From Lautropia sp. (GTDB lineage Bacteria; Pseudomonadota; Gammaproteobacteria; Burkholderiales; Burkholderiaceae_E), in contig JAUNKF010000023.1 of assembly GCA_030532895.1 (NCBI GenBank), positions 1 through 53,859 on the forward strand: a stretch of DNA of 53,859 bases, given 5' to 3'. Under the pieces are notes generated by a model. It had not been told where the DNA came from. It worked only from the letters and a program-made list of their open reading frames with translations, and did no database searches. A program made the position numbers and the translations under genes. Of this stretch, positions 10,642 to 31,637 are shown piece by piece (the stretch's first letter is position 1; the number at the start of each line of letters is the position of its first letter).

Positions 10642-11136
10642 TCAGGGTCTGGTGTGACTCAATCGCAGCATGAGTAGCAGCGGATCGACCGGAGAGGCCC
10701 GGAAACCGTAATGCTCGTAAAACAGTCTGGCGCGTTCGTTTAGGGCATGCACGAGCAACGCGCGAACGCCCGTGTTTTGGGCAACTTTCACCGCGCGGTT
10801 GACAGCATCCTGCAACAGGGAGGCCCCCAGCTTGATGCCCTGGGCGCGTTGATCCACCGCCAGTCTGGCCAGCACCATCACGGGCACGGGATCTGGCATG
10901 TTTCTGCGTACACTACCCGTTGCGAATTGATGCGACACGGCGCCAGCTGCCATCGCGTAGTAACCATGGACATGATGCTCATGGTCGGTTACCACGAACG
11001 TGCGGCTCGCACCACTGATCTGGTTGGCCAGCGCCCGACGCTTGAGCCATTCATCCAGCACAGGTTCGCCACAGGAAAAATCCGCGCAGTGGTGCGATGA
11101 GGTCAGCGGTTGCGGCCTACTCAGCGCAAGGCTCAT
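10642..11136 (-). CDS. GNAT acetyltransferase toxin, TacT/AtaT type
   Basis: A GNAT-fold protein of 164 aa. Family members that pair with a DUF1778 antitoxin acetylate charged aminoacyl-tRNAs and stop translation. Visible marks are the N-terminal HHCADFSCGEPVLDEWLKRRA typical of TacT-like toxins, the acetyl-CoA loop LAVDQRAQGIKLGASLL, and the tyrosine motif RLFYEHYGFRAS. Its ATG overlaps the antitoxin stop by 4 bases, the usual antitoxin-toxin coupling. It lies at the ruvA edge of the island. The tRNA target cannot be told from sequence. Confidence 0.9.
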   Translation of the reverse strand: MSLALSRPQPLTSSHHCADFSCGEPVLDEWLKRRALANQISGASRTFVVTDHEHHVHGYYAMAAGAVSHQFATGSVRRNMPDPVPVMVLARLAVDQRAQGIKLGASLLQDAVNRAVKVAQNTGVRALLVHALNERARLFYEHYGFRASPVDPLLLMLRLSHTRP

Positions 11137-11399
11137 GTCTGGTTCCAGACGGGGTTCAGGGCCAGCAGGCGTGCTAGTCCTGCGTTGGGCTCGGGAGGGG
11201 CATCCAGCAGATCAACAAACTGCTGGAATTTTTCGGCGTCCAGCGAGAAGTGAACCTGATCCAGAACCACGGCCTGGGCGCGCTCACAGGCTGCTTCCAG
11301 CATGAAGTCCGAACGATTCTTGCCCTGCAGTCTGGCGGCATGATCGATCAGATCACGCTGCTCTGGCAAGGCGCGCAGATTGATGGCAGCAGCACGCAT
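11133..11399 (-). CDS. DUF1778 antitoxin, TacA type
   Basis: An 88-aa protein starting MRAAAINLRALPEQRDLIDHAA, the ribbon-helix-helix DNA-binding half of DUF1778 antitoxins, followed by a toxin-neutralising tail (SLDAEKFQQFVDLLD). I chose the ATG at 11399 over the GTG at 11435 because the apparent -10 box lies at 11436-11441, so the GTG would be at or before the transcript start. It likely represses its own promoter. The stop overlaps the toxin start. Confidence 0.9.
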   Translation of the reverse strand: MRAAAINLRALPEQRDLIDHAARLQGKNRSDFMLEAACERAQAVVLDQVHFSLDAEKFQQFVDLLDAPPEPNAGLARLLALNPVWNQT

Positions 11400-11435
11400 G
11401 ATGTGGTTCTTCGTGAAAGCAGAGAGGATTCGCAC

Positions 11436-11464: not shown

Positions 11465-11479
11465 TACAAGCTCAGCCGG

Positions 11480-11608
11480 CTAGATCATGAACAACTTCGC
11501 CATGATCCCTTGATCGGGGCCATGCTGGATCGGTTGAAGGCCGGGCGCAAGGACTGTGCGTTACTGGCGGGCTCAGACAAACCGCTCATCGGCTTGGTGT
11601 TGCATTAG
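11480..11608 (+). pseudogene. Relic of an IS1380-family transposase (N-terminal fragment)
   Basis: The plus strand from 11483 reads DHEQLRHDPLIGAM, then LDRLKAGRKDCALLAG, and stops at TAG 11606-11608. The DH-x-LRHDP and RKDCA-LAGK order is characteristic of the N-terminal region of IS1380-type DDE transposases. After LAG the similarity ends. No start codon or rest of the transposase is present. A 7-bp inverted repeat (11483-11489 with 11501-11507) falls within it. Confidence 0.6.
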
Positions 11609-11813
11609 CGCCAACCAGGCTTGAAGCGATCCGTAGAATGCGGCAAAAGCAGCATGTCCGCACATCGGGCTGCGACATCGTGTGAAGGGTGATGGTTGTT
11701 CCCCAGGCTTGAACCCTTTCAAATCCTTGGCCTGCCCGAGACAACAGGCCAGGGCACGGTTGCCTTATCCTTGGCAAACCATTCCCGGTTGCGCCTTCTT
11801 TCCTGCCTGTTCC
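11609..11813 (+). other. Leader region upstream of the helicase operon
   Basis: No gene is seen. It holds a weak promoter candidate (TTGTTC at 11696-11701, 17 bp, TCAAAT at 11719-11724) and a perfect 7-bp inverted repeat (11728-11734 with 11745-11751) that could bind a regulator. No good ribosome-binding site precedes the ATG at 11814. Confidence 0.35.
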
Positions 11814-14800
11814 ATGTATCTAGAAAAACCGCCTGCTCTGGGTTCCCGTGTCCTGATTCGTGATGAAGAATGGCTCGTGCAGCGTACCGATGCCTGCGAC
11901 GGCGACTGGGAGGGGGGCGGCTGGCAACTCTCATGTGTGGGCTTGTCGGAAACTGTCCGTAACCATCAGGCCATGTTTCTCAGCGCCCTGGAACACATCG
12001 AAGAGTTGGACCCTGCCAAAACCGAGCTGGTACCCGACACCAGCTCCCGGTTCATCGAGACCCGTTTGTTGATCGAGGCCAGGCTGCGGCAGTCGGCCAT
12101 CCAGTACCGGGCTCTGGTGCTTGGCCATCAGGCCGTCATGGACGGGATGGCCTTTCAACGGGAACCAGCCCGACGCGTGCTTCAGCAGCTGCGCCCCCGT
12201 CTGCTCATCGCCGACACCGTGGGCCTGGGCAAGACGCTCGAAGCCGGCATTCTCACGGCGGAGCTGGCACGCCGTGGCCGCGCCCGGCGGATTCTGGTGG
12301 TTTCGACCAAAAGCATGATGAAGCAGTTTCAGCACGAGTTCTGGAACTGCTTCACCATTGCACTCACTCGTCTCGATTCGGCAGGCATCCAGCGCATCCA
12401 TCGGCAGATTCCGTCCAACCACAACCCTTTCAACTATTTCGACCGCACCATCATCTCGGTCGACACCCTCAAACGCGACCAGCAATACCGGCAGTTTCTG
12501 GAAAAGGCTTGGTGGGATTTGATCATCATCGACGAGGCTCACAACGTCTCGTACAAGGGCAGTCGTACTCAGAGCAACCGGCTGGCCCGCCTGCTGGCCC
12601 AGCGCTCCGATGCACTGATTCTGCTCACTGCCACCCCTCACAACGGCAAGAAGGAGAGCGTGGCCAGCCTCATCGACATGCTGGATCCCACAGTATTGGT
12701 ACCGGGCAAGGATTTTTCCCGAGATCAGATTGATCACCTGCTGGTGCGCCGGTCCAAGCGCGATGTCTTCAGTGAAATGAAGATGGGCTTTCCCGAGCGC
12801 AAGGTCTACAAGCTCACCACCGACGCCAGTGCCGAAGAAAACGCGGCCTACGAGTTGCTGGCCGAGATCAGACAGCATGACAAACAGAAGGCCGGCGCTG
12901 GAGATGGCACCATTCTGTTTAGTACCCTGCTGGAAAAATCGCTGTTTTCCTCGCCGGCAGCCTGTCTGCAAACCCTCAAGGAGCGCATTGGCCGCCTGGA
13001 AAAAAAGACACCAGAGCATCCCGAGCTGCCCGGCCTGAGGCAGTTGCAGGCTAGTGTCGAGGCCATCAGGCCCGAACATGTCAGCAAACTGCAATACCTG
13101 ATCCGGCTGCTGACGGGCAAGACGGACCCGGAAACCAGCTCCGGTAGCGGAGCGGATGCAGAGATACCAGATTTTCAGGCCAGCCTGAAGGACTGGCAAT
13201 GGAATGGCAAACGCGCCGATGATCGACTCGTGATCTTTACCGAACGGATCGAAACCCTGCGTTATCTGCAAAAGCACTTGCCGCCCGCCTTGGGCCTGAA
13301 AGACGATGCCGTCGCCGTGCTGGAAGGCCAGATGAACGATGCCGACATTCAGGACATCGTCGAGAGCTTTGGTCGGCACCATTCGCCTCTGCGTCTGCTG
13401 ATTGCCTCCGATGTGGCATCCGAAGGCTTGAACCTGCACCACGAGGCCCACCGTCTCATCCACTTCGATATCCCGTGGTCACTGATGGTCTTTCAGCAGC
13501 GCAATGGCCGGGTTGACCGCTATGGCCAGCAGAAGGCGCCGATGATCGGCTATCTGTATACGCGGCCAGGTCATGAGGCCATTCGTGGCGATGCTCGCTA
13601 TCTGGACATCCTGATCGAGAAGGACGTGCAGATTGCCAGGAATATCGGCGATGCCTCGGCTCTGACGGGTTTTGTCGACCCGCAAGAGGAGGAAGAGGCG
13701 ATTGCCATCGGCATTCAGGAGGGAAGGGATCCCAACCGGATACTGAGCACTCAACAGGCCGGCGCAGCGGCGGAGGCTGATGTTGGCGAAGAAAACATCG
13801 ATGCCTTTGATGCCTTGTTCGGTGAGTCGGCGCCGGAGGATGGCTCGGGGGCCGATGCCAGCAGTGCAGCAGAAGCATCCGGTGCCGACTTTGATGCGAT
13901 GTTTGCCAGTCTGAATGAGCCATCGGATCAGGCCGGTACACCGGCTGCAGCTCGTGACGTCAGCTCGATGCCCGGCGCTTCACAGCCTTCGGCAAACCAG
14001 ACGCATAAGGTCGACACGGCAGCGTTGCCCACATTGTTCGACTCGCACTATCAGTACCTGAGGGAAGGCCTCGGTTATCTGAACAGCAAGGCATCCACGG
14101 AAGAAACGCTGTGCCATGAGGATGATCCGCAGCGGCAGAGTCTGGCCATCACGCCCGGGCCGGATCTTCAGCAGCAGTTGCGCCGAGAGCTGGCCCCCGA
14201 GATGTACCCCGAGGACGGTCGCTTCACGTTGTGTGCCGAGAAGACGCTGGTTCAGAAAGCCATCAAGGACGCGCGCAATGGCGATGGCATGCCAACCGTT
14301 CAATACTTGTGGCCCCTGCATCCGGTGCTGCACTGGCTGGATTTCAAGCTGATGAGCCTGGTAGGGCGGCAGAAGGCGCCGGTCATGCGGGTGCCGCAGG
14401 GGCTGGCCGAGGGCGAGGCCATCTTTCTGATCCTGGCGCAGCGGCCCAACCGCAGGGGCCAGACCATGCAGTCAAACTGGTTGGGCGTACACATGGATCA
14501 GCACGGGAAGCTCCTCGACATCATGGAAGGCATCGAAGTGGTGCTGAAACATACCGGCCTGACCGGCGGGAACGCGCGGACCCCTGCCAATGATGGCCGG
14601 CCAATGGACATGGCGTCGTGGCAGCCTTTGCTGGCAAAGGCATTGGGGGAGGCCCGCAAGCACCTCGGGCAGATCAACGAGACCTTTGACGCACATTTCA
14701 AGCAACGGCTGTACGACGAGACACAGAAACTGGCTGGCCTCAAGGCCAGCCATGAGCAACAGTTGCAGCTTCAGTTTGGCGAAGAGTCAGCCCTGCCCAG

Positions 14801-14936
14801 GCTGCGTCAGCGTCAGCATGACGAACGGGTGGCGGAAGTGCATGCCCTTTTCAATCAGTATGAGCGATGGGCCCAAGAGACCTTGCAACTGGATAAACAA
14901 TCGCAGCTGATGGTGCTGGCGATGCTGGTTGCCTGA
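11814..14936 (+). CDS. DrmD-like SNF2-family helicase (DISARM-related)
   Basis: A superfamily 2 DNA translocase of 1,040 aa. Motif I is ADTVGLGKTLEAGIL (about 137-151), motif II WDLIIIDEAHN, motif III LTATPHNG, and the C-terminal helicase lobe has ASDVASEGLNLHHEAHRLIHF and QQRNGRVDRYGQ. The N-terminus (GSRVLIRDEEWLVQR) and overall order resemble DrmD of class 1 DISARM, which is encoded with an adenine methyltransferase, as here. An acidic Ala/Ser/Gly-rich linker (about 660-730) separates the helicase from a C-terminal domain of unknown role. The ATG at 11814 is the first start with family-like sequence after it; it lacks a clear ribosome-binding site, so the exact start is uncertain. It is the first gene of the five-gene operon. 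Confidence 0.85.
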   Translation: MYLEKPPALGSRVLIRDEEWLVQRTDACDGDWEGGGWQLSCVGLSETVRNHQAMFLSALEHIEELDPAKTELVPDTSSRFIETRLLIEARLRQSAIQYRALVLGHQAVMDGMAFQREPARRVLQQLRPRLLIADTVGLGKTLEAGILTAELARRGRARRILVVSTKSMMKQFQHEFWNCFTIALTRLDSAGIQRIHRQIPSNHNPFNYFDRTIISVDTLKRDQQYRQFLEKAWWDLIIIDEAHNVSYKGSRTQSNRLARLLAQRSDALILLTATPHNGKKESVASLIDMLDPTVLVPGKDFSRDQIDHLLVRRSKRDVFSEMKMGFPERKVYKLTTDASAEENAAYELLAEIRQHDKQKAGAGDGTILFSTLLEKSLFSSPAACLQTLKERIGRLEKKTPEHPELPGLRQLQASVEAIRPEHVSKLQYLIRLLTGKTDPETSSGSGADAEIPDFQASLKDWQWNGKRADDRLVIFTERIETLRYLQKHLPPALGLKDDAVAVLEGQMNDADIQDIVESFGRHHSPLRLLIASDVASEGLNLHHEAHRLIHFDIPWSLMVFQQRNGRVDRYGQQKAPMIGYLYTRPGHEAIRGDARYLDILIEKDVQIARNIGDASALTGFVDPQEEEEAIAIGIQEGRDPNRILSTQQAGAAAEADVGEENIDAFDALFGESAPEDGSGADASSAAEASGADFDAMFASLNEPSDQAGTPAAARDVSSMPGASQPSANQTHKVDTAALPTLFDSHYQYLREGLGYLNSKASTEETLCHEDDPQRQSLAITPGPDLQQQLRRELAPEMYPEDGRFTLCAEKTLVQKAIKDARNGDGMPTVQYLWPLHPVLHWLDFKLMSLVGRQKAPVMRVPQGLAEGEAIFLILAQRPNRRGQTMQSNWLGVHMDQHGKLLDIMEGIEVVLKHTGLTGGNARTPANDGRPMDMASWQPLLAKALGEARKHLGQINETFDAHFKQRLYDETQKLAGLKASHEQQLQLQFGEESALPRLRQRQHDERVAEVHALFNQYERWAQETLQLDKQSQLMVLAMLVA

Positions 14937-14955
14937 CGAAGACGGAATTGCCATC

Positions 14956-17900
14956 ATGAGTTTTGCCATTCACGGCCTCGACAACACCAACGAGTTTTAC
15001 AGCCAGCACTATCTGGACGAGATCCTGTTTCAGGATCTGAAGCCGCTCTTCGATCGCTGGAAAGCGAAGGAGGGCAGGAGCCCGGTTGCCGCATTGCGTC
15101 AGGCCAGTGGTGCCAATGCCTACCTGCGTCATCGAGAGCTGTTTCTCAAGGCACGCAAGGCACAGGATCGAGCCACCCGGCTGCGGGAGCTGGTGGTACC
15201 GCTGTTGCAGGCGTTGGGCTATGACATGCCCGAAGAGGCGCCGATGCTCACCATCCGCGAGGGTAGCAAGGAGGCTGAGCTACCGGTGCTGGCGCTGTAT
15301 CAGGATGCAGAGGGCCATCCGTTGCTGGCCATCGTACCCGCACTGGCTTTGGTGGATCAGGAAGAAGAATCGCCGTTGCAGCTGGTGCCTCATGACTTGA
15401 ATGCGCAAGTGCTGGTGGGTAAGCCCACCCGAACGGCAAAAGCATCGGCCGACAAAGCCCTGCAGACCTGGGAGGACTTTCTGACCGAGCGGATCTTTGC
15501 CGCAGAAAAGCCGCCCCGGTGGGTCCTGCTGGTACACCACGACCAGTGGCTGCTGATCGAACGGCACAAGTGGAGCCGCAAGGCGCTGCTGGCCTTCACC
15601 CTGCGCGATCTGTTTGCCGCCCGAGACCAGCAGAGCTTTGAGGCGTTCATGGGGTTGGCCGGTCGGGAGTCAGTCATCCCGAGCGAAGGTGGCTCATCTC
15701 TGCTCGATACCCTCGATGAGAACTCGCATCGGCATGCCTTCGAGGTGTCGGACGATCTCAAGTATGCACTGCGTGAATGTGTCGAGCTGATTGGCAACGA
15801 AGCGATCCATTACCTGCGGCATGTACGGAAAGAGAAGCTCTACAACCGTACTGATCAGGCGCTGGCTGATCAGCTGGGACTGGAATGCTTGCGCTACATG
15901 TACCGCTTGCTGTTCCTGTTCTATATCGAGGCGCGGCCCGAGCTGGGTTATGCACCCATCAATGCCGAGAGTTATCTGAAGGGCTACAGCATCGAGCATC
16001 TGCGCGATCTGGAGCAGACACCGCTGACCACCGACGAATCTCGCAACGGCTGGTACTTTCATCAGAGCCTGCAAAAACTCTTTGAGCTGGTGTGGCAGGG
16101 GTATCCAGCCAGCCGTCACCAGGCCACAGGCGGGCAGCGCTCGATGCAGGAGGCTGAGGATGCTGTCGGCCTGAGGGTATCGGACCAGAGTGATCGGCAT
16201 GTGCAGGGACGGATGGACATCATCCGGGGGTTTCAGATGCCCCCCCTTCAGGGGCACCTGTTCGACCCAGACAAAACGCCCTTGCTGTCGCGCGTCAAGC
16301 TGCGCAACCGGGTGCTTCAGCAGGTTATCGCGCTGATGTCGCTGTCACGCAGCAGCGGTACGCGAAAACGGCGTGGCCGCATCAGTTATGCCACGCTTGG
16401 CATCAACCAGTTGGGGGCTGTCTATGAGGCGCTGCTGTCCTTTCGCGGTTTCTTTGCCGAGGAAGACCTTTACGAGGTTCGGCCCGATCCCAAGGCTCGC
16501 AAGACAGCTGCCCCCAAGTTGTCCGATGATGATGCGGTGGATGACGCGGCAGAATGGGAGGATGACGACAAGGCCTCGGAAAACCCGCGTCACAACAGGG
16601 CCGATGCCGAGCTGGATCCCTTGAAGCCCGCGTACTTCGTGAACGCCGCCGCCTTGAAGGATTACTCTCCTGCCGAGAAACTTTTTGGGGGCGAAGTACG
16701 TCATTATCCCCAGGGCAGCTTCATCTATCGGCTGGCTGGGCGTGAGCGGGAAAAATCAGCCAGCTACTACACGCCCGAGGTTCTCACGCGTGCCCTGGTC
16801 GAGCAGGCGCTGGCACAGGTGCTACCGGGCAAGCGAGCCGAAGACATCCTCAAACTGACGGTTTGCGAGCCGGCGATGGGGAGCGCAGCCTTCCTGAACG
16901 AGGCAGTCAACCAGTTGGCCGAAGCCTATCTGCAGGTCCGGCAGCAAGAAGAAAACACCACGATTCCGCACGATGACTATGTGCGTGAGCGTCAGCGCGT
17001 CAAGATGTTCATTGCCGACAACAATGTCTTTGGCGTGGATCTGAACCCTGTGGCGGTGGAGCTGGCGGAGGTCTCGTTGTGGCTTAACGCCATCTATCAG
17101 GGCAGCCATGTGCCCTGGTTTGGCCTACAGCTTTTGTCGGGCAACTCGCTGGTGGGGGCACGACGGGATGTCTTTCGTACCCAGGTGCCAAAAACGGGGG
17201 CCAAGGGTAAAGGTAAAGGGGCTAAGGCCACCGAGAGCAGCGTGCCCTCAAACCCTGTGGTGCAGGGGCATGAGAGTGACTCTGCCGCCCCCCTGATGGA
17301 GGCGGATGCGGCCCCGATGGCCTTGCCGTTTTCTGAGTCGCCCAAAGCGGATGAGGTCTTTCATTTTCTGCTGCCAGCCCGTGGCATGGGGGTGATTACC
17401 GACAAGGTGGTGAAGGAACATGCAGCCGAGGAGGTGCAGGCCTTCGCGGATTGGCGCAAGGCCTTCAACAAACCGTTGTCGGCCGAAGAAATCGGGCGTG
17501 CCCGCAGGCTGACACAGGCCGCAGACAAGCTATGGCAGCAGTTGGCCCAGGAGATGGCGCTGGCACGCCAGAAAACCAATGATGAGCTGTACGTGTGGCC
17601 GGACATGCGTCAGGCCAAAGTCCCGCTCAGCACCGCGCAAAAAGACGACCTCAGAAGCGGCTGGCTGGAAAGCGAGCAACAAAGGAATGCCAGCCCCTAT
17701 CGTCGTCTGAAGCTGGTGATGGATTTGTGGTGTGCGTTGTGGTTTTGGCCGGTCAGTGAGGCAGCGCACCTGCCCGCGCGCGAGTTCTGGTGGTTTGTGC
17801 TGGAATATCTGTTGCTGGGTGATGACTTGCAGACTCTGGCCGACGACACCCAGACCACCGATGAATCGTCGGCAGATGTGGATGCCGGCATGATCGGTGT

Positions 17901-20137
17901 CACCCCCGACATGTTTGGTGGCCCGCCACCGCAGGTGGCCGAGCCTGCGGCAGGCTGGGGCAAGCAGCTCTTGCCGGAATTGACCCGTGATCGCTTTGGT
18001 TATGTCGATATCGACAAGTTGATCGAAACCGTCCCTTTCATGGCGGTGGCACAGCAGGTGGCAGAGCGCCAGCGCTTTTTGCACTGGCCGCTGGCTTTCG
18101 CCGACATCTTTGCAGAACGCGGGGGCTTCGACATCCTGTTGGGGAACCCACCCTGGATCAAGGTGGAATGGAGCGAACAGGCACTGCTGTCGGACTTTGA
18201 CCCACGCTTTGCCATCCGCAAGCTCAGCGCCAAGCAGACGGCAGATCAGCGTGCCAGCGTTTTCCAGAACTACCCGAAGGCCAAAGACGAGTACATGATG
18301 GAATGCGTAGCCACCGAGGGGATGAGTGAATACCTGAATGCTACGCAAAACTACCCCTTGTTGGCCGGACAAAAGGCCAATCTCTACAAGTGCTTTCTGC
18401 CTCTGGTGTGGCGCATTGGCACCGGGGTGCAGGCCTTGCTTCACCCAGAGGGCGTGTACGATGACCCCAAGGGCGGTGCTTTTCGTGCGGCGCTTTATCC
18501 GCGCTTGCGCGGGCATTATCAGTTCATCAATGAACTCAAGCTGTTTGCCGAGGTGCATCACCTCACCACGTACAGCATCAACATCTACGGCCCTGCAAGA
18601 GATCAGCTGGGTTTCAGCCATGTGGCGAATCTGTTTTCACCCTCAACCTTGACGGCCAGTCTGCGTTATTCGGGCGAAGGCCCTGTGCCGGGCATCAAGT
18701 GCGATAAAGGGGGCTGGAATCTGGACGGCCACCGTAGCCGCATCATTCAGGTGGATGAAGCGATGCTGAGCACCTTTGCCAGTTTGTATGATCCGAAAGG
18801 TACCCCGGCTAGACAGGCCAGGTTGCCGGCGGTACACAGCCAGGAACTGGTGGCGGTACTGGAGAAGTTTGCCAAGGCACCTCGTAGACTCAGTGACTTG
18901 AATGCCGATAGCTACTGCACCCAGCATTGGAACGAAACCATTTCCCAGAAAGACGGCACCATTCGCCGCGAAACCGGCTTTGTGCAGAAGGCACAGGATT
19001 TCATCCTGTCTGGCCCTCATTTCTTTGTGGGGAATCCCTTCAACAAGACGCCGCGCCGCGTGTGTTCGCTGAACAGTCATTACGATGTGATCGACCTGGA
19101 ACATATCCCCGACGATTACTTGCCTCGCGTCAACTACCAGCCTGCGTGCTCTCCGGGGGAATATCTCCGCCGCATCCCCCGCGTCAGCTGGACTGAAGGG
19201 GAAGAGACAGTACATCGGCCGGTGACGGATTACTATCGTTTTTCTGCTCGGCGGATGTTGTCTATTGCGGGGGAAAGGTCATTGATCGGTTGTCTGGTTC
19301 CTCCTGGGTTTTCTCACATCAACAGGTTTTTTCATTTCTTTGTTGGCGGACTTTTTTGTCAAGACAACAGGGCGTGCAGATATTTATGGCCTTCTGGAGA
19401 GGATGCCAGTCATAAATGACAATGTGTTGTTGTCTTCTCGCGTTTTGTCTTTAAGTAGCCTGACAAAAGATTATAAGGAACTATGGTCTCGTGGCTGGGT
19501 TGCGGTATTTAAGGAGGACGAATGGTCGAGTGATGATTCCCGCCTCCCTCAAGACTTCTTCAAAAAACTCACCCCAACCTGGCAACGCAACAACGCGCTG
19601 CGCAGCGACTACGCGCGTCGGCAAGCCTTGCTGGAAATCGACGTATTGGTGGCGCAGGCGCTGGGGCTAACGCTGGAAGAGTTGCTCACCATTTATCGTG
19701 TGCAGTTTCCGGTGATGCGGCAGTACGAGCAAGATACCTGGTATGACGCACGTGGCCGTATCGTCTTTACGCCCAGCAAGGGGTTGGTGGGGGTTGGTCT
19801 GCCGCGCAAGGCTGGCAAGAAAGACGCAGAATGCGAGGTGTTGAAGCCGGGGGAGCAGCCCGAAACCCGTCGTCTGGGTTGGGAAGACCTTCAGCCCAAG
19901 AAAGAGGCCGACGGCCGCTTTACGCCCCAGGTGCCCGATGGCACCCTCATCCGGCGCACCGTCATCGACGATACCCTGCCAGGCGGCCCCAAGGCGCGCA
20001 CCATCGAGTATGTGGCACCCTTCAGCCTGGCAGACCGCGAAGCCGACTACCGGGTGGCTTGGGCACATTTTGAAGCGCGGGCCAACCCGCAGGCCGATGG
20101 CGTCTCAACAACGGGGGAGCCGCATGCAGCTGCGTAG
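14956..20137 (+). pseudogene. Giant N6-adenine DNA methyltransferase (DrmMI/Eco57I-like), frameshifted near 19327
   Basis: This is the methyltransferase partner of the DrmD-like helicase. From the ATG at 14956 (19 nt after the helicase stop, GGA upstream) the frame reads through motif I VCEPAMGSAAFLNEA (about residue 635) and motif IV ILLGNPPWIKVEW (about 1060), the NPPW of N6-adenine methylation. This frame ends at 19419 with an unrelated tail. The next frame continues from the same place (LLADFFVKTTGRADIYG onward) to TAG at 20135-20137 without a valid start. Removing one T from the T6 run at 19327-19332 joins them into about 1,735 residues. The C-terminal part should hold target recognition. 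It may be mutation, homopolymer slippage or a sequencing error; the gene is otherwise intact. Confidence 0.85.
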
Positions 20138-22313: not shown

Positions 22314-25300
22314 TTCTGTCCGACCAGATCACCCGTGGTGTGGCTGATTTCCTGCGGGCGGCTTTTCCCATCAGCAATGCGCCCTTCGAGGGCATGGTCG
22401 AGCACTTTCTGCAACAGCCCCACAATCTGTTCAAAGGCCCGTACCTGTCGGTGCCGATGCCGTTCAGAAAGCAGCCGCCGGAAAGCATGGGCAAGGCATC
22501 TGCGGCGCTGCCCTGGTTGCCCGAGGGCTTTGTGCCGCACGCTCATCAGGCGCGTGCCTTTGAGCGCCTTTCCGGCAAGGAGGCTCAGTCCACGCTGGTG
22601 GCCACCGGCACGGGGTCAGGCAAGACCGAATGCTTTCTCTACCCGATTCTGGAGCATTGCCGTCGGCAACGTCTGGCAGGCGTCAAGGGGATCAAGGCCA
22701 TCATCCTCTATCCGATGAACGCCCTGGCCTCGGATCAGGCGGCCCGTCTGGCGCGCGAGATTCTGGGCAACCCGGCGTTGAAGGACATTCGTGCCGGGCT
22801 TTACGTGGGCGATGAGCCGGCCGAAACAGCCAGGGAAGTCAGGAAGTTTGCCAATGGCAGCTTCTCGGTGATCACCGATCGCCATGCCATGCGCAACGAG
22901 CCGCCCGATATCCTGCTCACCAACTACAAGATGCTGGATTTTCTGCTGCTGCGTGCCGATGATGCCGAGCTCTGGCGGCATCAGCAGCCCGATACCCTGC
23001 GTTATCTGGTGGTGGATGAACTGCATACCTTCGATGGCGCCCAGGGAACCGATCTGGCCTGTCTGGTGCGTCGTTTGAAAGGGCGACTGAATACCCCGAC
23101 AGGCCAACTCGTGTGTGTGGGTACCTCGGCCACGCTCGGCAGTGACGGTGATGATGCCTTGGTGCAATTTGCCAGCGACATCTTTGGTGAGCCTCTGGAT
23201 GCTGATTCGGTCATTGATGAAGATCGGCTGTCGGTGCCCGAATATCTGGCGGATGCGATGGTCGCGCACGTTCGATATCCGCAACCCGAGCATATCGATA
23301 TCCTCGATCCCGAGCGATACGAGACTTTTGAGGCCTGGCTGGCTGCGCAGGTGCCATTGTGGTTTACCAGCGAGCACGGACAACCATCGCCCGAAGGTTT
23401 CGAAGTGAATCCGGCTCCCGGTCTGGTTCGGAAACCCGCATGGCGTTGCCAGTTGGGCCGGCAGCTTCGACAGCATTTTGCGTTTCAGAACCTGTTGCGT
23501 GACCTGGCCGCAGAAGGTGGTAAGGCCGTGCCGGTGCAGGCCATGCTGCAACGCCTGTCACAGCGGTTGCCAGCCAGCCAGGATGCGCGCTACCCCGAAC
23601 TGTGGCTGAGCAGCCTGCTGGCGCTGGTGGCGCATGCTCGGTTGCCCAAAGCGCAGACACTTCAGCAACAGTTCTGCTTGCCGCATGACCTCGACGAAAA
23701 GCAGGTGGGCTTCTTCCTGCAGGTGAAGGTCGAGGTGTGGTTGCGAGAACTGCGCCGCATGGTGGCCAGTGTGTCCAGCGATGCACCAGAGGCGCTTCTG
23801 GAGCAGCTGAAACAGCAGCGGGAGGTGTTATTTAGCCGGGGCTCTGAACGTCAGCCGGCGGAAGCCAGGTTCAATGCCTTTCTTGGCCAGAAACGAACGA
23901 TGCTGGCCGTGAGGAAAAGCCGCCAACCACAGTTGGCTTTTCACGATGACCTGGATCGACCCGACCGGGTCTGGTTGCCGGTGGTTCACTGCCGAGATTG
24001 CCATGTGGCGGGTTGGGGAACCACGGTCGATGCTTTTTCTCCGGATCTCGTACAGCAGGATGTTCAGGGTTTTTACTCGGCCTTCTTTGGTGAAAGTCCT
24101 CATGTGCGCTTTCTTTTTCCCAGGAAAGAGAACGAGTGTGACGCTGATACAGCATACATGTTGAAGGCAGGCAGCTTGCACCGTCGTCTTTGTTCACGTT
24201 GCGGGACTTTGAACATGCCGCATGCCACGGCGTGTCAGGAATGTGCAGCTCTGTCTTCACCTGATTCATCGGTCGAAGAGGCCTCTCCCACTGCTGAGCG
24301 GGGGCAGGCAGCATGGCAGGATGTGTGGGTGGTGCAGAACTTGCGTACCCGGCAGCGCAATGGCAATGTGGTCAGGACTTCGCATCGTGACTGCCCCTTC
24401 TGCAAGGGGCGAAACAGCCTGTCCATCATGGGGTCTCGGGCGGCCAGCCTTTCGGCGGTGATGCTGGCTCAGCTGTTCGCTTCGCCTTTCAACCCCGACA
24501 AGAAGCTGATCGCTTTTTCGGATTCGGTTCAGGACGCAGCACATCGAGCCGGTTTCCTGGCTGCACGTACCTGGCAGCTCAATCTGCGCCCGGCCATCGC
24601 TCAGGTGATCGACGCTGTTGAAGAGGCAGGCTCACTGTTGGGGATGGATCAGCTGGCCGATGCATTCGAGAAGCACTGGTTGCGTCCCGGTGGTGGGGAA
24701 GCAGTTCTTGCTGTCAAGTCAGATGGCGGGGAAGATGTGCGCATGGGTCTGGGGCGTTATCTGGCCACTTTCCTACCGCCCCAGCTTCATTGGCTTCATG
24801 ATTTTGAAGCGATGCTGGCATCAGATGATGGCCGTCTTCCGGCGGGTAGTCGGCTGGCCTCGGATTTTCGGGGGATATTGCCCTGGATGCTTCATGCCGA
24901 GTTTGGTCAACACGCACACTATGGTCGAAGCTTGCCGGCAACCGGTACGGCGGTTGTGGTGCCTCGGTCGGGTACCCTGGAAAAGGCCGCGGCCTGGTTG
25001 ATAGTCCGTCTCGCTGGCAAGATCGACTGCCTCAGTCGGCGCGTCAGTAATCCGAAGCTACAGAAGTTCTTGCAAGGGCTCATCCATGCCATGCAGCGGG
25101 CAGGCGCGTGGTGGGATGGTGCCAGAAAGGGAGATGAAGGAGGTGCCGTGCAGCATGGACTGGCACATTATGCTGCAGATGGTTCACAACCCTGGCGATA
25201 CAGAAAAAGCCCGCTTCGCTTTCAGATGCTTTCCGGGCCACGGGCGCCGCGTTTCATTACGCTGACTGCCTACAAGAATTCTGCCCACTTGCTGGGGCAG

Positions 25301-28300
25301 GGAGCCGAGTGGTATGAGGACTGGGCCTTGAAGACGTTGCCGCAGCTTCATGAGGTGGCCCAAGGCTTGTCGAGCCTCTTGGCTGATCTATACGCGCTGG
25401 CACTGAAAGCCTTGCAGGCAGCAGGGATTGCCGATGCCGTGGATGCTTCGGCTGCTGCCTCTTCCTCCTCTGGCCAGCAGGTGCCTCAGGTATGGGGGCT
25501 GCTGCCTTCGGCTTTTCTGCTGCAGACCGAGGTGCGTTGCTGGAAGTGCAATACATGTCATGACAAAGTGCTGTCAGCGCTACAGACTCTTGATGATGAT
25601 CTGACGGACTCCCCCTGTCGTCGATTGGGGTGCCAGGGACATTTGGTGCCTGCTGAAAAACCGGAGCCAGATGCAAGCGATACCGGTTCTGCTGCCAGAA
25701 GCACGTCAGGCGGGTATTACAGAAATTTCTATCGGCGTGCAGACATCGCCCGTGTGGTGGCACGAGAGCACACCGGCCTGTTGGCAAGAGAGGTGCGAGA
25801 AACGGTCGAACGACGTTTTCGATCGGATGCACGCCTGCCGGGTGATGTGAACGTGCTGTCTGCCACGCCCACGCTGGAGATGGGTATCGACATCGGTGAT
25901 CTGTCTTCGGTGTTGCAGTGTTCGGTGCCGCCTCAGCAAGCTAGTTATATCCAGCGCGCAGGCCGGGCAGGTCGCAGTACGGGTAATGCGCTGGTGATGA
26001 CGATGGCCACCGGCAATGCCCACGACCTGTATTTCTGGTCTGACCCGAGAGAGATGGTGGCAGGGCAGGTGACGGCTCCAGGCGTTTTCCTGAACGCATC
26101 GGCCGTTCTGGAGCGACAGCTGATGGCCTTCACGCTGGACAGGTGGGTGAGAGAGGGCGGCAAGGCGGTACGAATCCCCAAAACCATGAACGAGGTGCTA
26201 CGCGTCGTCAAGAACCAGTCGACCACGCTGTTTCCTTTCTCGTGGCTGGCCCATGTCGATCGGCGCCGTCATGCCTTGTTGAGTGACTTCTTGGCCTTGT
26301 TCGAGCAGTCCGTCGCTCGTCTGCCTTGTGAGGGAGCGTGCGATAACCCCGATGAGACCACTCCAGTCAGGCAAGCAGATCGGGGCTTGAACAAGGACAC
26401 CATTGTCTGGTTACAGCGATTCTTGGGGGTGGGTGTCGAAGGGGGGCGTCCTGAAGTGCGGACACTTTTTTCGACACGTGTGCTCGGTCTGCTGGAGAGG
26501 CTCTCTGCTGAACGCGAGTTCATGGTCAGGCAGAAGAAGCAGCTTCAGAGTAGCATCGCACAGCTGAATCAGTTGCCTGTCAGATCCACCGACGACGAGC
26601 AACAGTTGCAGGATCTGCGCGCCGAGTTGAGCAACGTTCATCGACTCATCAAGGAGCTCGATGAAAAGCAGACGCTCAATGTGCTGACCGACGAAGGATT
26701 GTTGCCAAACTATGCCTTCCCCGAGCAAGGGGTCCAGTTGCAGTCGGTCATCATCGGTGATCGGAAAGCAGCGCAGGCACCTGGTGAACAGAAGGGCGCA
26801 GCCACCGGGGCAAATCAGCCCCAAGGCACCGGCAACGCGAAAGATGGTGATCCTGCGCTGCTGACACTGGAGTATGTGCGACCCGGCTCTGCGGCGATTA
26901 CCGAGCTGGCTCCGGGCAACACCTTCTATGCCGAAGGGCGCAAGGTGGTGGTCAGCCAGGTGGATGTGTCGTTGACCAAGCCCGAGCCGTGGCGATTCTG
27001 TCGCGCCTGCTCTTATGCAGCGCCGGCTCGGGCTACGCCGGAAGAAGCCTGCCCCCGCTGTGGTGATCCGCTTTGGCCAGACCAGGGGCGGTTGCGTGAC
27101 ATGCTGCGTCTTGAGAAAGTGCTGGCACGAACGCTGGATAGAAACAGCCGCATCGCAGATGATTCGGATGACCGTGAGCGCAAGTTCTACGTCCGCCAGG
27201 TGCTGGTCGATGCGGCACCGGAGGCCATTCGTCAGGCCTATTCGTTGCCTGACGAGAAGTTCCCCTTTGGTTTCGAGTTTCTGGATCGGGTGACGCTGCG
27301 TGAGGTGAACCTCGGTCTTCAGGACGGAGCAAATCAAAGCTGGGCGCTAGCCGGGCAGGAGAAATTGGCGCCGGGTTTCGATATCTGCCGGGCGTGCGGA
27401 ACCCTGCAACACAGGCAGTCAGCAGCAGCCGGGCCTGTGTCAGGATCACCGGCGAGCGACAGGGCCACGTATCTTGGGCATGCGATATGGTGCAAGGAGC
27501 GTCAGTCACAGCCAGTGATGGGGGGAGCCCGTGCCGAGCAACCTTTCTTTCTCTATCGGGAGGTGAGTAGTGAAGGCATCCGCCTGTACTTGCCGCCTGT
27601 TGACTTTGCTGATGGCACCGTCGCATTGCACAGCCTGATCTCGGCCTTGCAGTTGGGGATCAGCAAGCGCTTCAAGGGCGCTGTGTCGCATCTGAGCATT
27701 GCGGCAGATGTACGCATGGCTGATCGTGTGGCTGAGCTGGATGAGGGGGACGAAGCAGTGGGACATGATGCCCGTCGAACACACGATTATCTTGTCATCT
27801 ACGATACGGTGCCCGGCGGGACAGGCTACCTGAAGGAATTGATGCGAGGGGGCGATGGCAAGAGCCTGTCGTTGCGGGAGGTGTTCGATCTGGCCTGGAA
27901 GGCGCTCGAGGCATGCGATTGCAACCGTACCGCGTATCGTGATGATGGCGACCTGGCAGACGGGTGCTATCGCTGCATGTATCGGTACCGAAACACCCAT
28001 GATCGACAGAACATTTCCAAGCGGGTGGCGCAGCGGTTGTTGCAGATGATTCTGGACAACTGGTCAGGGCTTGAGCAACTGGCGTGGGATGCCAAGCATG
28101 GCGCGCTGGATACGATGCTTCAGGACCTGGACAAGCGGCAGCTATTGGACAGTAAGCTGGAGAGGCGCTTTCTTGAAGCTTTGGTTCAGCCCTTTACGGT
28201 GGCTGGTCAGCCGGGAGAGACGGTCTTTCGTTTGCAACGTGCTCTGGTGAAGGGGGCAGAGGCCTATTTGCTGCATGCAGGTAAACGTCGTTGGCGGCTT

Positions 28301-29452
28301 GAGCTTCAGGTTTCGTTGGGCGAGCGACAGGGGGTCAGGATTTCCAGCCGGCCAGATTTTGTGTTCTGGCCCGACGACGGCATCGATGATCGACCGATCG
28401 CTGTATTCACCGACGGCTGGGGTTTTCACAAGGACCGTGTGGGTGAGGATCTTGGCAAGCGTATGGCGCTGGTCAAGAGTGGAAAGTTTTCGGTATGGAC
28501 GCTTGGCTGGGCCGATGTGGAACAGGCTTTCCTGCAAGGTGACGATGGTGGTGCTGTCCGTTCGTCAGATCTGGGGCCATGGGGTGAGGTCTACGTGAAG
28601 GATGCCAGTGCTGCCATTGACAAGCTGTGTGCAGCGCAGGGGCTTCAAGCGCATCAGGATTTCTGGCAGCTTCCCGCCCTGCGTCAGTTGCAGCAACGTC
28701 TGACCAATATTACCCACGAGGAGCATCGTCGTCTGGCCTGCGTGGCCACCATCGCCATGCTTGGGCATGTGGGTGATGCTGGCCAACTGAGTGCATTCAG
28801 AAATTCCGAATTTTGGCGGCGTCTGGACGATTACGGCATGCTGGAGTTCATGGTGCCAGGCGGCCGTTGGAGCCATCGCAGCTTGTGGCAGGTGGCACAT
28901 GTAGCTGCTGTCATCTCGGCAGACCAGTTGGGGCATTGGATGAAGGGAGGCCATGATGTTGCGCAGGAGCCTCGTCTGGTGTTTTCCTGGCTGCCGGAGG
29001 ACCTGCTTGATCTGCCCGCACCGGAGGTTTGCAAGCAGGGGTGGCAGCAGATGTGGCGGTTGTTGAACATGCTGATGCCGCTGACGCAGCTTTGGGCGGG
29101 CACGGTCGACATGCCCGGGTTGCCGGCCCTACAGGTTTACGCACCGCTGGCAAGGCCGGTTGAGCCGGATATTGGCTGGATGCAGGTGAGGGCGGATGTT
29201 CTGCCGGACGTTGGCGACTGGGTAGAGGTATTGATACAGGCCGGTGTAGAAGTCCCGGAGGTTGGCTTCGAGCTGTTGGGAGCCAACAACCGTGTTCAGG
29301 CCGAGGCCGAGCTGGCCTGGGTAGGGCAGAAAGTGGCGGTTGTGATGGCGGAAGAAGATTGCCCAGCTTTCGTCGATGCGGGGTGGAAGGTGTTTGTGTT
29401 TGAAGATGGCCAACAGCCTGATGCGCTGCTGGAGAGATTGAGGAGCCATTGA
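22301..29452 (+). CDS. Very large DEAD-box helicase with DUF1998 domain and nuclease-like C-terminus
   Basis: A 2,383-aa protein. Residues 75-300 are a DEAD-type helicase lobe (VATGTGSGKTECFLYPILEHC near 100, motif II VVDELHTFDGAQGTD near 240, GTSATLG). The second lobe has LSATPTLEMGIDIGDLSS (near 1185) and YIQRAGRAGRS (near 1217). Many zinc-type clusters occur (CRDCHVAGWG, CSRCGTLNMPHATACQEC, CPFCKG, CWKCNTCHDKV, CRACSYAAPARATPEEACPRCG). DUF1998 shows as CDCNRTAYRDDGDLADGCYRCMYRYRNTHDR (near 1870, read in two parts). A tail at about 1990-2090 (SSRPDFVFWP, AVFTDGWGFHKD) looks like a PD-(D/E)XK fold. This joins in one chain functions that DISARM splits between DrmA and DrmB and that DruE of Druantia also carries. 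It overlaps the previous gene by 13 bases. Confidence 0.85.
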   Translation: MQPLILSDQITRGVADFLRAAFPISNAPFEGMVEHFLQQPHNLFKGPYLSVPMPFRKQPPESMGKASAALPWLPEGFVPHAHQARAFERLSGKEAQSTLVATGTGSGKTECFLYPILEHCRRQRLAGVKGIKAIILYPMNALASDQAARLAREILGNPALKDIRAGLYVGDEPAETAREVRKFANGSFSVITDRHAMRNEPPDILLTNYKMLDFLLLRADDAELWRHQQPDTLRYLVVDELHTFDGAQGTDLACLVRRLKGRLNTPTGQLVCVGTSATLGSDGDDALVQFASDIFGEPLDADSVIDEDRLSVPEYLADAMVAHVRYPQPEHIDILDPERYETFEAWLAAQVPLWFTSEHGQPSPEGFEVNPAPGLVRKPAWRCQLGRQLRQHFAFQNLLRDLAAEGGKAVPVQAMLQRLSQRLPASQDARYPELWLSSLLALVAHARLPKAQTLQQQFCLPHDLDEKQVGFFLQVKVEVWLRELRRMVASVSSDAPEALLEQLKQQREVLFSRGSERQPAEARFNAFLGQKRTMLAVRKSRQPQLAFHDDLDRPDRVWLPVVHCRDCHVAGWGTTVDAFSPDLVQQDVQGFYSAFFGESPHVRFLFPRKENECDADTAYMLKAGSLHRRLCSRCGTLNMPHATACQECAALSSPDSSVEEASPTAERGQAAWQDVWVVQNLRTRQRNGNVVRTSHRDCPFCKGRNSLSIMGSRAASLSAVMLAQLFASPFNPDKKLIAFSDSVQDAAHRAGFLAARTWQLNLRPAIAQVIDAVEEAGSLLGMDQLADAFEKHWLRPGGGEAVLAVKSDGGEDVRMGLGRYLATFLPPQLHWLHDFEAMLASDDGRLPAGSRLASDFRGILPWMLHAEFGQHAHYGRSLPATGTAVVVPRSGTLEKAAAWLIVRLAGKIDCLSRRVSNPKLQKFLQGLIHAMQRAGAWWDGARKGDEGGAVQHGLAHYAADGSQPWRYRKSPLRFQMLSGPRAPRFITLTAYKNSAHLLGQGAEWYEDWALKTLPQLHEVAQGLSSLLADLYALALKALQAAGIADAVDASAAASSSSGQQVPQVWGLLPSAFLLQTEVRCWKCNTCHDKVLSALQTLDDDLTDSPCRRLGCQGHLVPAEKPEPDASDTGSAARSTSGGYYRNFYRRADIARVVAREHTGLLAREVRETVERRFRSDARLPGDVNVLSATPTLEMGIDIGDLSSVLQCSVPPQQASYIQRAGRAGRSTGNALVMTMATGNAHDLYFWSDPREMVAGQVTAPGVFLNASAVLERQLMAFTLDRWVREGGKAVRIPKTMNEVLRVVKNQSTTLFPFSWLAHVDRRRHALLSDFLALFEQSVARLPCEGACDNPDETTPVRQADRGLNKDTIVWLQRFLGVGVEGGRPEVRTLFSTRVLGLLERLSAEREFMVRQKKQLQSSIAQLNQLPVRSTDDEQQLQDLRAELSNVHRLIKELDEKQTLNVLTDEGLLPNYAFPEQGVQLQSVIIGDRKAAQAPGEQKGAATGANQPQGTGNAKDGDPALLTLEYVRPGSAAITELAPGNTFYAEGRKVVVSQVDVSLTKPEPWRFCRACSYAAPARATPEEACPRCGDPLWPDQGRLRDMLRLEKVLARTLDRNSRIADDSDDRERKFYVRQVLVDAAPEAIRQAYSLPDEKFPFGFEFLDRVTLREVNLGLQDGANQSWALAGQEKLAPGFDICRACGTLQHRQSAAAGPVSGSPASDRATYLGHAIWCKERQSQPVMGGARAEQPFFLYREVSSEGIRLYLPPVDFADGTVALHSLISALQLGISKRFKGAVSHLSIAADVRMADRVAELDEGDEAVGHDARRTHDYLVIYDTVPGGTGYLKELMRGGDGKSLSLREVFDLAWKALEACDCNRTAYRDDGDLADGCYRCMYRYRNTHDRQNISKRVAQRLLQMILDNWSGLEQLAWDAKHGALDTMLQDLDKRQLLDSKLERRFLEALVQPFTVAGQPGETVFRLQRALVKGAEAYLLHAGKRRWRLELQVSLGERQGVRISSRPDFVFWPDDGIDDRPIAVFTDGWGFHKDRVGEDLGKRMALVKSGKFSVWTLGWADVEQAFLQGDDGGAVRSSDLGPWGEVYVKDASAAIDKLCAAQGLQAHQDFWQLPALRQLQQRLTNITHEEHRRLACVATIAMLGHVGDAGQLSAFRNSEFWRRLDDYGMLEFMVPGGRWSHRSLWQVAHVAAVISADQLGHWMKGGHDVAQEPRLVFSWLPEDLLDLPAPEVCKQGWQQMWRLLNMLMPLTQLWAGTVDMPGLPALQVYAPLARPVEPDIGWMQVRADVLPDVGDWVEVLIQAGVEVPEVGFELLGANNRVQAEAELAWVGQKVAVVMAEEDCPAFVDAGWKVFVFEDGQQPDALLERLRSH

Positions 29453-29453
29453 G

Positions 29454-31637
29454 ATGGACGTCAAGCCGAAGGTTGCACTCTGCGACGGTTTCCTGAAATC
29501 GATGATGCAGATCAACAAGAAGGATCAGCACAAGGTTCTGCAGTTCGTGGCCAAGTTTCGTCAGAACCCGCGTGCCACGGGCATCAATTACGAGCCTATC
29601 CATGATGCGGCTGATCCGAACATGCGTTCGGTTCGCATCGATCAGGATGTGAGAGGTATCGTGCTCAAGCCTGCTGTTGGCGACATCTACTGCTTGCTGT
29701 GGGTAGATCGTCATGATGATGCCTATCAGTGGGCGCGGCGCCATCGTGTGCAGATCCATCCGGATGTGGGCGCCATTCAGATCTTTGCCGTTGACGAAGG
29801 ATCTGCCCCTGCATCCGGTGTCTCGTCCGATGTGTCCTTGTCTGCTCCCCAACCTGAGAGCGGTGAAGATGTGCCAGGGGGGGCTGGGCTGTTTACCGCC
29901 TTGCGCGATCGGCAGATTCGTGCGCTGGGTGTGCCCGAGCAGCATCTGGCTGCCGTGCGGGCCGTGATGACGGAGGACGACCTGGAGCGCCTTCAGTCCA
30001 TGTTGCCTGATGATGCTTTCGAGGCCTTGTTTCTGTATGCCGCAGGAGAGTCTTACGACAGCATCTGCACGGCCAGACCGTCGGATACCCCTATCGATAC
30101 CAACGACTTTGCTGCTGCGTTGGAGCGGGATGAATCTCGTCGACATTTTGTGGTGCTGACCGACGACTCTGATATCGAGGCCTTGCTGGCGGCTCCGCTG
30201 GAGCGTTGGCGTGTGTTCCTGCACCCCAGCCAGCGCCGATTGGTGAATCGTGACTGGTCTGGCCCTGTGAAAGTGACGGGGGGGGCCGGCACTGGCAAGA
30301 CCGTAGTGGCCATGCACCGGGCCAGATACCTGGCTCAGAAGTACAAGGATCTGCCCGGTAAGCCCGTGGTTTTCACCACATTCACCAAGACGCTGGCAGA
30401 GGACATCGAACAGAACCTGAAGAAGCTGTGTACCCCGCAGGAGCTGGAACGCATTCAGGTGGTGAACCTGGATCGTTGGTCCTTCAACCTGTTGAAAGCA
30501 ATGGGGTACCGCTACCGTCCGTTGTACGACGAGAAGGAACGTCAGCAATACTGGGACCGGGCATTGGCCGTGTTGTCGGAAGAGGTTCGGGCACAGCATC
30601 TTGAAGGGATTGCATCACCCCTGAATTTTGTTCGTGCCGAATACGAGCGTGTCATTCTGCCTCAAGGATGCGAAACCCTTGATGATTATGTACGCGCCCG
30701 CCGTGTGGGACGGGGAGGCAAGCTGGGCCGAAGTCAGAAGAAGGCGCTGTGGCCAGTCTTTGCCGAATATCGAGCCTTGTTGACGGCAGCTGGCTTGCGA
30801 GAGCCTGAGGAGGCTTACCGGGACGCTCGTCTTTTACTGGAGAAGGAAAAATCCTCCCAGGGCGTGAGGGCAATGATTGTCGATGAGGGCCAGGACATCA
30901 GCGCGGCTGCCTACGAGTTCATTCGTGCCGTGGTACCCGAGGCCGACAACGATCTGTTCATCGTGGGCGATGCCCACCAACGCATCTATAGGCACAAGGT
31001 TGTATTGGGACGTGTCGGCATCAACGTGCGGGGGCGCAGTCGCTCGTTGCGGCTCAACTATCGCACCACCGATGAAATCCGCCGTTGGGCATGCGCGCAG
31101 CTGGCGGGCTGTGACATCGACGATCTGGACGGCAATGCAGATACCTTGCGCGGATATCGGTCCCTCACTCACGGAGAAGAACCAGAGGTCATTGCTTCGA
31201 TAAGCGTGGACGATGATGCCAACCACATTCGTGCGGTGCTGATGTCCAGTCAGCAACAGGGCATCGAGGCCCGCAAGCTGTGCGTGGCGGTGCGTGACAA
31301 CAGCCGGCTTCGAGAGCTGGCAGGCGTGTTGACTACCAAAGGGATTTCTCATCTGGCGCTCAATAACGAAACGACAGATGACCCGAATGTTGACGGGATT
31401 CGTCTGGCCACGATGCACCGGGTAAAGGGGCTTGAGTTTGATGTGGTGATCGTGGCGGCCTACGAAGGCGCTGACCACTACGCGGCACAATTGAGCCGTG
31501 ATGCTGATGCGGGGGTTGCCGAAGACGCCGAGACGGCGGAACGCTGCTTGTTGCTGGTGGCGGCCACGCGCGCCAGGCGACAGCTTATCGTCCTGAGCCG
31601 TCAAGGCGGGACATGGGCCAGCTCAAAACATGATTGA
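29454..31637 (+). CDS. RelE/ParE-like domain fused to a UvrD-family superfamily 1 helicase
   Basis: A 727-aa protein. Residues 1-110 resemble RelE/ParE toxins (NMRSVRIDQDVRGIVL, DIYCLLWVDRHDDAYQWARRH). From about 255 a UvrD-like helicase follows: Walker A VTGGAGTGKTVVAMHRARYL, motif II MIVDEGQDISAAAYEF, motif III FIVGDAHQRIYRHK, LRLNYRTTDEI, motif V TMHRVKGLEFDVVIVAAYEG and motif VI LLLVAATRARRQLIVLS. It starts one base after the preceding stop (TGAGATG), so it is translationally coupled. Two G runs lie in the coding sequence: G7 at 29877 and G8 at 30278-30285 inside the Walker A codons. The product could unwind or clear foreign DNA; whether the RelE-like part is an active RNase is unknown. 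Its stop faces the ruvC stop 18 bp away. Confidence 0.85.
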   Translation: MDVKPKVALCDGFLKSMMQINKKDQHKVLQFVAKFRQNPRATGINYEPIHDAADPNMRSVRIDQDVRGIVLKPAVGDIYCLLWVDRHDDAYQWARRHRVQIHPDVGAIQIFAVDEGSAPASGVSSDVSLSAPQPESGEDVPGGAGLFTALRDRQIRALGVPEQHLAAVRAVMTEDDLERLQSMLPDDAFEALFLYAAGESYDSICTARPSDTPIDTNDFAAALERDESRRHFVVLTDDSDIEALLAAPLERWRVFLHPSQRRLVNRDWSGPVKVTGGAGTGKTVVAMHRARYLAQKYKDLPGKPVVFTTFTKTLAEDIEQNLKKLCTPQELERIQVVNLDRWSFNLLKAMGYRYRPLYDEKERQQYWDRALAVLSEEVRAQHLEGIASPLNFVRAEYERVILPQGCETLDDYVRARRVGRGGKLGRSQKKALWPVFAEYRALLTAAGLREPEEAYRDARLLLEKEKSSQGVRAMIVDEGQDISAAAYEFIRAVVPEADNDLFIVGDAHQRIYRHKVVLGRVGINVRGRSRSLRLNYRTTDEIRRWACAQLAGCDIDDLDGNADTLRGYRSLTHGEEPEVIASISVDDDANHIRAVLMSSQQQGIEARKLCVAVRDNSRLRELAGVLTTKGISHLALNNETTDDPNVDGIRLATMHRVKGLEFDVVIVAAYEGADHYAAQLSRDADAGVAEDAETAERCLLLVAATRARRQLIVLSRQGGTWASSKHD

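Follow-up and report, generated by a model that had tools for sequence, protein, structure and literature searches.

Results

An ARMADA type II operon with an additional gene

The 53,859-nucleotide stretch of Lautropia sp. DNA analysed here (hereafter the window) contains a block of five plus-strand genes at 11814-31637, which very probably constitutes an ARMADA type II defence operon in which a cargo slot at the armB-armC junction is occupied by a Schlafen/HATPase gene. Checks of open reading frames (ORFs) and of PADLOC and Pfam matches confirmed that the five genes are real. The initial annotation had described them as a DrmD-like helicase, a methylase, an AlbA_2/HATPase protein, a DEAD/DUF1998 helicase and a RelE-UvrD fusion, a description borne out by these checks and by comparison with E. 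coli ArmD (Table 1).

ARMADA type II was named in 2025 by Bell et al. (PMC12458937). As set out in the main text of that paper, it comprises, in strict order, a BrxHII-like SNF2 helicase (ArmA), a PglX-like methylase (ArmB), a YprA helicase with a Vsr nuclease (ArmC) and a protein with RelE-like and GajB-like UvrD parts (ArmD). The same text describes the E. coli system as a direct, non-abortive defence that needs all four genes, the loss of any single one ending defence, and in which helicase and methylase residues are required or contribute. In the part covered, a 2026 review lists ARMADA among the systems restricting by unknown mechanisms (PMC12904381).

Judged by gene order, architecture and the residues mutated in E. 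coli, four of the five genes of the window are armA-armB-armC-armD of ARMADA type II. They follow each other in this order on one strand, and the locus of E. coli ATCC 8739 is homologous gene by gene, with identities of 39% for armA, 45 and 50% for armB, 36% for armC and 46% for armD. ATCC 8739 has all eight residues mutated in E. coli NCTC 12900 at the same positions, and the window conserves them too. Besides this agreement in gene order, domain make-up and mutated residues, the window differs from ARMADA type II in adding the Schlafen/HATPase gene at the armB-armC junction and in having a broken armB. The initial annotation had proposed a search for the five-gene order in other genomes. We found armA, armB, armC and armD arranged alike in E. 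coli and in all five same-phylum loci that were long enough (L017, L018, L019, L021 and L022; L numbers are our locus identifiers); L005 and L020 are shorter fragments with only the end of the operon and stand outside this count. The suspicion that the operon might correspond to a recent DISARM-like class was well founded, the class being ARMADA type II. As for the exact match to a named system that had been put forward as a refutation of novelty, it was found for four genes, and the fifth, the Schlafen gene, is extra.

The individual proteins fit these assignments. ArmA matches the PADLOC DrmD profile (E 4.7e-99) as well as the BrxHII and HmaA profiles, contains the Pfam domains SNF2-rel_dom and Helicase_C and keeps the equivalents of K136 and D236; comparison with relatives favours its start at 11814 over the mechanically called one at 11682. 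The first part of ArmB, 45% identical to E. coli ArmB, has Eco57I and N6_Mtase domains, matches DrmMI and REase_MTase_IIG in PADLOC and keeps the equivalents of G605 and N971 (NPPW). ArmC has DEAD, Helicase_C and MZB domains and the fused DUF1998/CxxC arrangement, with 10 Zn-binding CxxC motifs compared with 9 in E. coli; in PADLOC, whose library predates the ARMADA name, it scores best with DruE1 to DruE4. An alignment of 78 loci revealed a conserved motif, E..DF..F.DG..yH..D..kR, at residues ~1955-2055 of ArmC, which, read by eye, we take to be a Vsr-like nuclease motif. Further towards the end of the protein, residues 2293-2369 (about 29177-29407) match the end of the ZorE2 profile (E 4.5e-8), and the last ArmC domain of relatives shares the motif ELxDxxGxxxAEAELAW; this last domain is perhaps a degenerate nuclease. 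In a census of 398 genomes of the phylum, eight had an ArmC match at E ≤ 1e-100, the source genome counted.

ArmD has a Pfam UvrD domain and matches GajB and other UvrD families in PADLOC. Its N-terminus shares 54% identity with the E. coli one, termed RelE-like in the main text of Bell et al. (PMC12458937), and was modelled with a pLDDT (predicted local distance difference test score) of 91.5. Weak matches among 40 ArmD N-termini were to ParE_like (21, at E ≤ 1), Gp49 (12) and HigB (3); the window's own N-terminus matched none of these three families, and its PDB profile search did not find RelE. A search of phage records with ArmD gave no match at 1e-40.

Insertions concentrate between armB and armC

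We scanned genome and viral collections with an alignment of the ArmC N-terminal region built from the window and five same-phylum loci. The resulting sample, chosen by likeness to the query, consisted of 80 genome and 8 viral loci kept and 6 earlier loci, including near-duplicates (L038/L042, L056/L063 and L081/L089). Junctions were counted among 95 loci (the window and L017-L110) when both neighbouring genes were above threshold within the contig and a 10-kb flank, a limit by which very large slots are under-counted.

More than 300 bp separated armB from armC at 36 of 71 junctions, compared with 2 of 50 between armA and armB and 2 of 77 between armC and armD (Fisher p 8e-9 and 2e-12, respectively, not corrected for relatedness). 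Among the 45 loci with all three junctions measured, insertions of this size were found at 19 armB-armC, two armA-armB and one armC-armD junctions. Genes at the latter two junctions almost always lie end to end (median spacing of -10 nucleotides (nt) for armA-armB and 6 nt for armC-armD). The near-abutting armB-armC junctions (35 loci) range from -168 to 194 nt with a median of 9, and the filled ones (36 loci) contain between 0.7 and 9.5 kb of additional DNA, with a median of 2.9 kb; the slot of the congener locus L116 is also filled (~3.1 kb). A quick-type ArmC tree comprised 72 rows, with the window and E. coli ARMADA II included and type I, Druantia and DISARM absent. The slot is filled in 37 of these rows and changed state at least 20 times on the tree. 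With about half of the junctions empty, the cargo is optional and not needed.

Slot contents tend to run with the operon. Mechanical calling of ORFs of at least 120 amino acids (aa), with the window left out, gave 81 on the plus and 24 on the minus strand (105 in total), and the last plus-strand cargo ORF ended within 60 nt of the aligned start of armC in 19 of the 30 slots scored. In E. coli, the junction region was matched in 519 of 5426 genomes, and the slot was closed in every covering row among the matches listed (the best 30 and a spread of 60, one of the latter being a 54-nt stray match).

A separate route through ArmD yielded 39 plasmid records, of which eight non-enterobacterial ones were examined and their genes checked by tblastn. 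Seven have the order A-B-C-D. The eighth, from a Cylindrospermopsis plasmid (L139:11429-28102), reads C-D-A-B, with armC-armD upstream of armA-armB; this swap agrees with an operon of two separable halves. Six of the eight viral-collection contigs (L103-L108) carry ARMADA II genes, and carriage of ARMADA II by mobile or phage-like elements is suggested.

Slot proteins frequently match defence families

For the PADLOC scan of the cargo we picked by eye one protein, usually from a large plus-strand ORF, from each of 30 of the 36 filled slots (the window, L029, L063, L078, L084 and L086 were left out). Scored as single proteins, 16 of the 30 matched a defence family at E ≤ 1e-30: PsyrT (L023, L049), MkoA (L025, L071, L092), AbiLi (L026), GajA (L027), an oligonucleotide cyclase (L041), HamB (L066), AbiEii (L067, L096), TmtA (L104) and the candidate families PDC-S70, PDC-M68B, PDC-M07A/HEC-01A and PDC-S58 (L017, L065, L070, L088). 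We take the named labels to stand for PsyrTA, Mokosh, AbiL, Gabija, CBASS, Hachiman, AbiE and Tiamat. Across 106 slot ORFs, the Pfam families found (25 of 84 listed) included AAA_21 (7), AAA_15 (6), SLFN_AlbA_2 and HATPase_c_4 (4 each), protein kinase (3), and AbiEi, AbiEii, GmrSD, patatin and DUF3368 (2 each). Within the supported ArmC clade of the window (five rows), the other three slots hold a PsyrT-like, an MkoA-like or an unassigned gene.

The armB of the window is broken

The initial annotation had treated the giant methylase as one gene. We found instead that its frame breaks near 19320-19345 and that the C-terminal part continues in another frame, where the ORF 19340-20137 matches positions 1365-1523 of the 1584 of PDLC03614 (E 9.1e-49); the intact armB of ARMADA II is thus not found in the window. 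A single armB frame was seen in 63 of 66 loci, the window counted, the other two exceptions being L034 and L097, and a recurrent break is accordingly unsupported. Some 18-20 junction residues that are present in L116, L023-L025, L042 and E. coli ArmB are missing from the window, most simply explained by the loss of about 50 nt, a length that is no multiple of three. Given these missing residues, a homopolymer sequencing error was rejected as the sole cause. From the sequence, the break looks like a deletion, an assembly fault being the other possible origin. A PDB profile search with armB gave nothing informative. We read the window gene as a broken copy of the ARMADA II methylase and not as part of a different system.

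The deletion and frame change would also suit a decaying island, in which slot insertions are tolerated debris with no functional link to ARMADA, an explanation compatible with the anatomy described so far. It could draw as well on the transposase-like remnant, assigned by eye, at the left edge of the insertion, and on the slots of L078 and L088, which hold mostly minus-strand or small ORFs. Against it, the insertions concentrate at one of three junctions, are mostly co-directional and include a known or candidate defence-family match in 16 of the 30 slots scanned, and in the window the reading frames of armA, armC, armD and the Schlafen gene are uninterrupted. We consider this explanation unlikely.

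The Schlafen/HATPase gene looks like interchangeable cargo

The start of the Schlafen/HATPase gene is probably the ATG at 20124, not 19938, so that it overlaps the end of the second armB frame; its own end overlaps the start of armC. The N-terminus of the protein matches the solved chain 2kyy_A (E 1.4e-67), and PADLOC returned weak matches to pAgo profiles only. Schlafen RNase sites consist of an E-E-D acidic triad, as in SLFN11/13. In our alignment of five rows, E18, E23 and K25 are invariant, and the third acid is D or E in four rows and K in L049.

These overlaps, and a gene 61% identical at the same position in the congener locus L116, might point to a distinct ARMADA subtype in which the Schlafen/HATPase protein works as a fifth subunit needed by the complex, perhaps as a sensor or an RNase. 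Distant Schlafen-type genes upstream of and adjoining armC in the slots of L027, L049 and L103 point the same way, but they are only 23-26% identical and are accompanied by GajA in L027 and by PsyrT in L049. Moreover, the window's own ArmC clade is not uniform in what its slots hold, E. coli ARMADA works with four genes (the ATCC 8739 locus has no Schlafen gene), and relatives of the gene are also found outside ARMADA loci, in two same-family genomes with no arm gene within the fetched 16 and 20 kb. A fifth subunit is therefore quite improbable. Contrary to its initial description as a part of the system, the gene looks, from its sequence and distribution, like interchangeable cargo, one among many. 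The L116 slot contains a second ORF (L116:8698-9828) upstream of the Schlafen gene, which by eye we presume to be DUF3644-like. In L117, a PDB search with two genes next to the Schlafen gene gave nothing informative.

Genomic surroundings

The 20-kb operon interrupts ruvC-ruvA-ruvB (9956-32270), being located between ruvA-ruvB and ruvC-purH. We delimited the inserted segment by BLASTN of each flank against the congener locus L120, where a GNAT-DUF1778-like pair but no ARMADA lies between ruvC and ruvA. In four of eight congeners (L119, L123, L124 and L125), ruvC and ruvA lie within ~400 nt of each other; among the other four, L120 has the pair only, L122 (genome G414) has a gap of ~1.4 kb, L121 runs into a contig end and one has no ruvC match. 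Genome G414 carries the same five genes on a contig other than that of ruvC (L116, in which armD is cut by the fetched stretch). At the left edge of the insertion, the translation ...DPLIGAMLDRLKAGRKDCALLAG... appears by eye to be a transposase remnant, presumably IS1380-like; a DNA search of plasmids with it gave no match.

Table 1. Features of the window
Feature	Coordinates	Strand	Description
RHS gene	32-2260		RHS repeat core-domain gene at the left end of the window
GNAT-DUF1778-like pair	10642-11435	-	GNAT acetyltransferase-like and DUF1778-like genes, toxin-antitoxin-like, by eye from translations
Inserted segment	11469-31651		Between the ruvA side (with the GNAT-DUF1778-like pair) and ruvC
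Putative transposase remnant	11471-11610		Left edge of the insertion
armA	11814-14936	+	BrxHII/DrmD-like SNF2 helicase, 1040 aa
armB, first part	14929-19419	+	PglX-like N6-adenine methylase, 1496 codons, premature end through frame change
armB, C-terminal part	19340-20137	+	Other frame, 265 open codons, ~225-250 homologous to the end of ArmB
Slot cargo gene	20124-22313	+	SLFN_AlbA_2 and HATPase_c_4 protein, 729 aa
armC	22301-29452	+	YprA-family DEAD/DUF1998 (MZB) helicase, putative Vsr-like motif towards the C-terminus, 2383 aa
armD	29454-31637	+	RelE/ParE-like N-terminal domain and GajB-like UvrD helicase, 727 aa

Discussion

In the model that we favour, the ArmA translocase and the ArmB methylase would form a recognition and modification half, and ArmC and ArmD a half that would unwind and degrade phage DNA without killing the cell, as the non-abortive defence of E. 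coli suggests. The junction between the two would be a recurrent insertion site for other genes, often defence genes. Slot genes are probably co-expressed with armC, since they are mostly co-directional with it and often closely abut it. The Schlafen/HATPase cargo would most likely be a backup effector, whose HATPase or C-terminal region may sense a phage signal and whose AlbA_2 domain may cut or bind RNA. With armB truncated, ARMADA itself probably works less well or differently in this strain, and active defence may fall to the cargo.

Several observations weigh against this interpretation or limit it. Half of the armB-armC junctions (35 of 71) are empty, and among the seven plasmid loci with the A-B-C-D order only two have a filled slot. 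No PADLOC match at 1e-30 was obtained for 14 of the 30 slot proteins. The copy of ARMADA in the window may be inactive, because its armB is broken and deletion of any arm gene abolishes defence in E. coli. The Vsr-like assignment of ArmC is based on a motif read by eye, and Pfam and PDB profile searches of the last 300 residues, a region that begins after this motif, found no nuclease. Finally, the RNase activity of the Schlafen protein is uncertain, as the third acidic residue is not conserved.

That the operon represents a new DISARM class, with a replaced canonical core and methylation-based self/non-self discrimination, as first proposed, is hardly credible: ArmA and ArmB do match the DrmD and DrmMI profiles, but each of the four core genes has its counterpart in ARMADA II, a system that already had a name, and the best PADLOC profiles of ArmC are DruE, not DrmA. 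For a deletion in E. coli that bears on such discrimination, the main text of Bell et al. reports no toxicity (PMC12458937). Relatedness to DISARM stands. The window has in common with class 1 a DrmD-like helicase, a PglX/DrmMI-like methylase and a YprA-family helicase, and differs from it in having no separate DrmA and DrmB and in having a RelE-UvrD gene instead. The core is not replaced, since ArmC, which has DEAD and MZB in one protein, falls in the YprA/DUF1998 family to which DrmA with DrmB also belongs. The PLD domain that DrmC would have was not found in the Pfam scan of the window proteins. Druantia is a further relative through the DruE profiles of ArmC, but the partners in the window are an SNF2 helicase, a methylase and a UvrD helicase, not the other Druantia genes. 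For DruE, single-stranded DNA loading and nuclease action are described in the text covered (PMC13192584).

For the cargo of the window, the best analogy is the Schlafen-HK-wHTH genes that Rakesh and Krishnan (2026, PMC12839542) describe as backup effectors in BREX/BR in at least 1017 taxa. Like the window gene, these have an AlbA_2/Schlafen domain followed by HATPase and are linked to a methylase-containing operon. The same article proposes PARIS-like modules beside BREX as a second layer once phage block BREX; its text, in the part covered, gave no match for ARMADA, DISARM or YprA. Defence modules nested in multi-gene defence operons have been described too, namely TgvAB inside a type I restriction-modification operon (PMC11411939) and the embedded defence genes of Hma (Payne et al., 2024, as cited in the part of PMC11411939 covered). 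There the host is type I restriction-modification or Hma, whereas here it is ARMADA II with one preferred junction. By analogy with the PARIS-like modules, ARMADA II might be a two-half chassis, with A-B modifying and C-D restricting, whose armB-armC junction is a dedicated docking site, at which unrelated plugged-in defence modules would share expression with ARMADA and fire as a second layer when phage block it; we offer this as a tentative idea, somewhat doubtful as it stands.

In the main texts of one open-licence library of papers we found no description of an ARMADA cargo slot, and term searches of the main text of Bell et al. (PMC12458937) turned up nothing on genes at the armB-armC junction. 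The five-gene set is thus ARMADA II with a known kind of backup gene, and the slot itself is what we did not find in print. ARMADA looks like a closed four-gene system in E. coli, the host of the only ARMADA tested in the papers covered, but it does not in about half of the loci measured (36 of 71), which raises the question of whether ARMADA is guarding or triggering its cargo. The slot also provides a rule for finding new defence genes, which is to look between armB and armC, and by their position the 14 slot proteins that matched no PADLOC family would be candidate defence genes.

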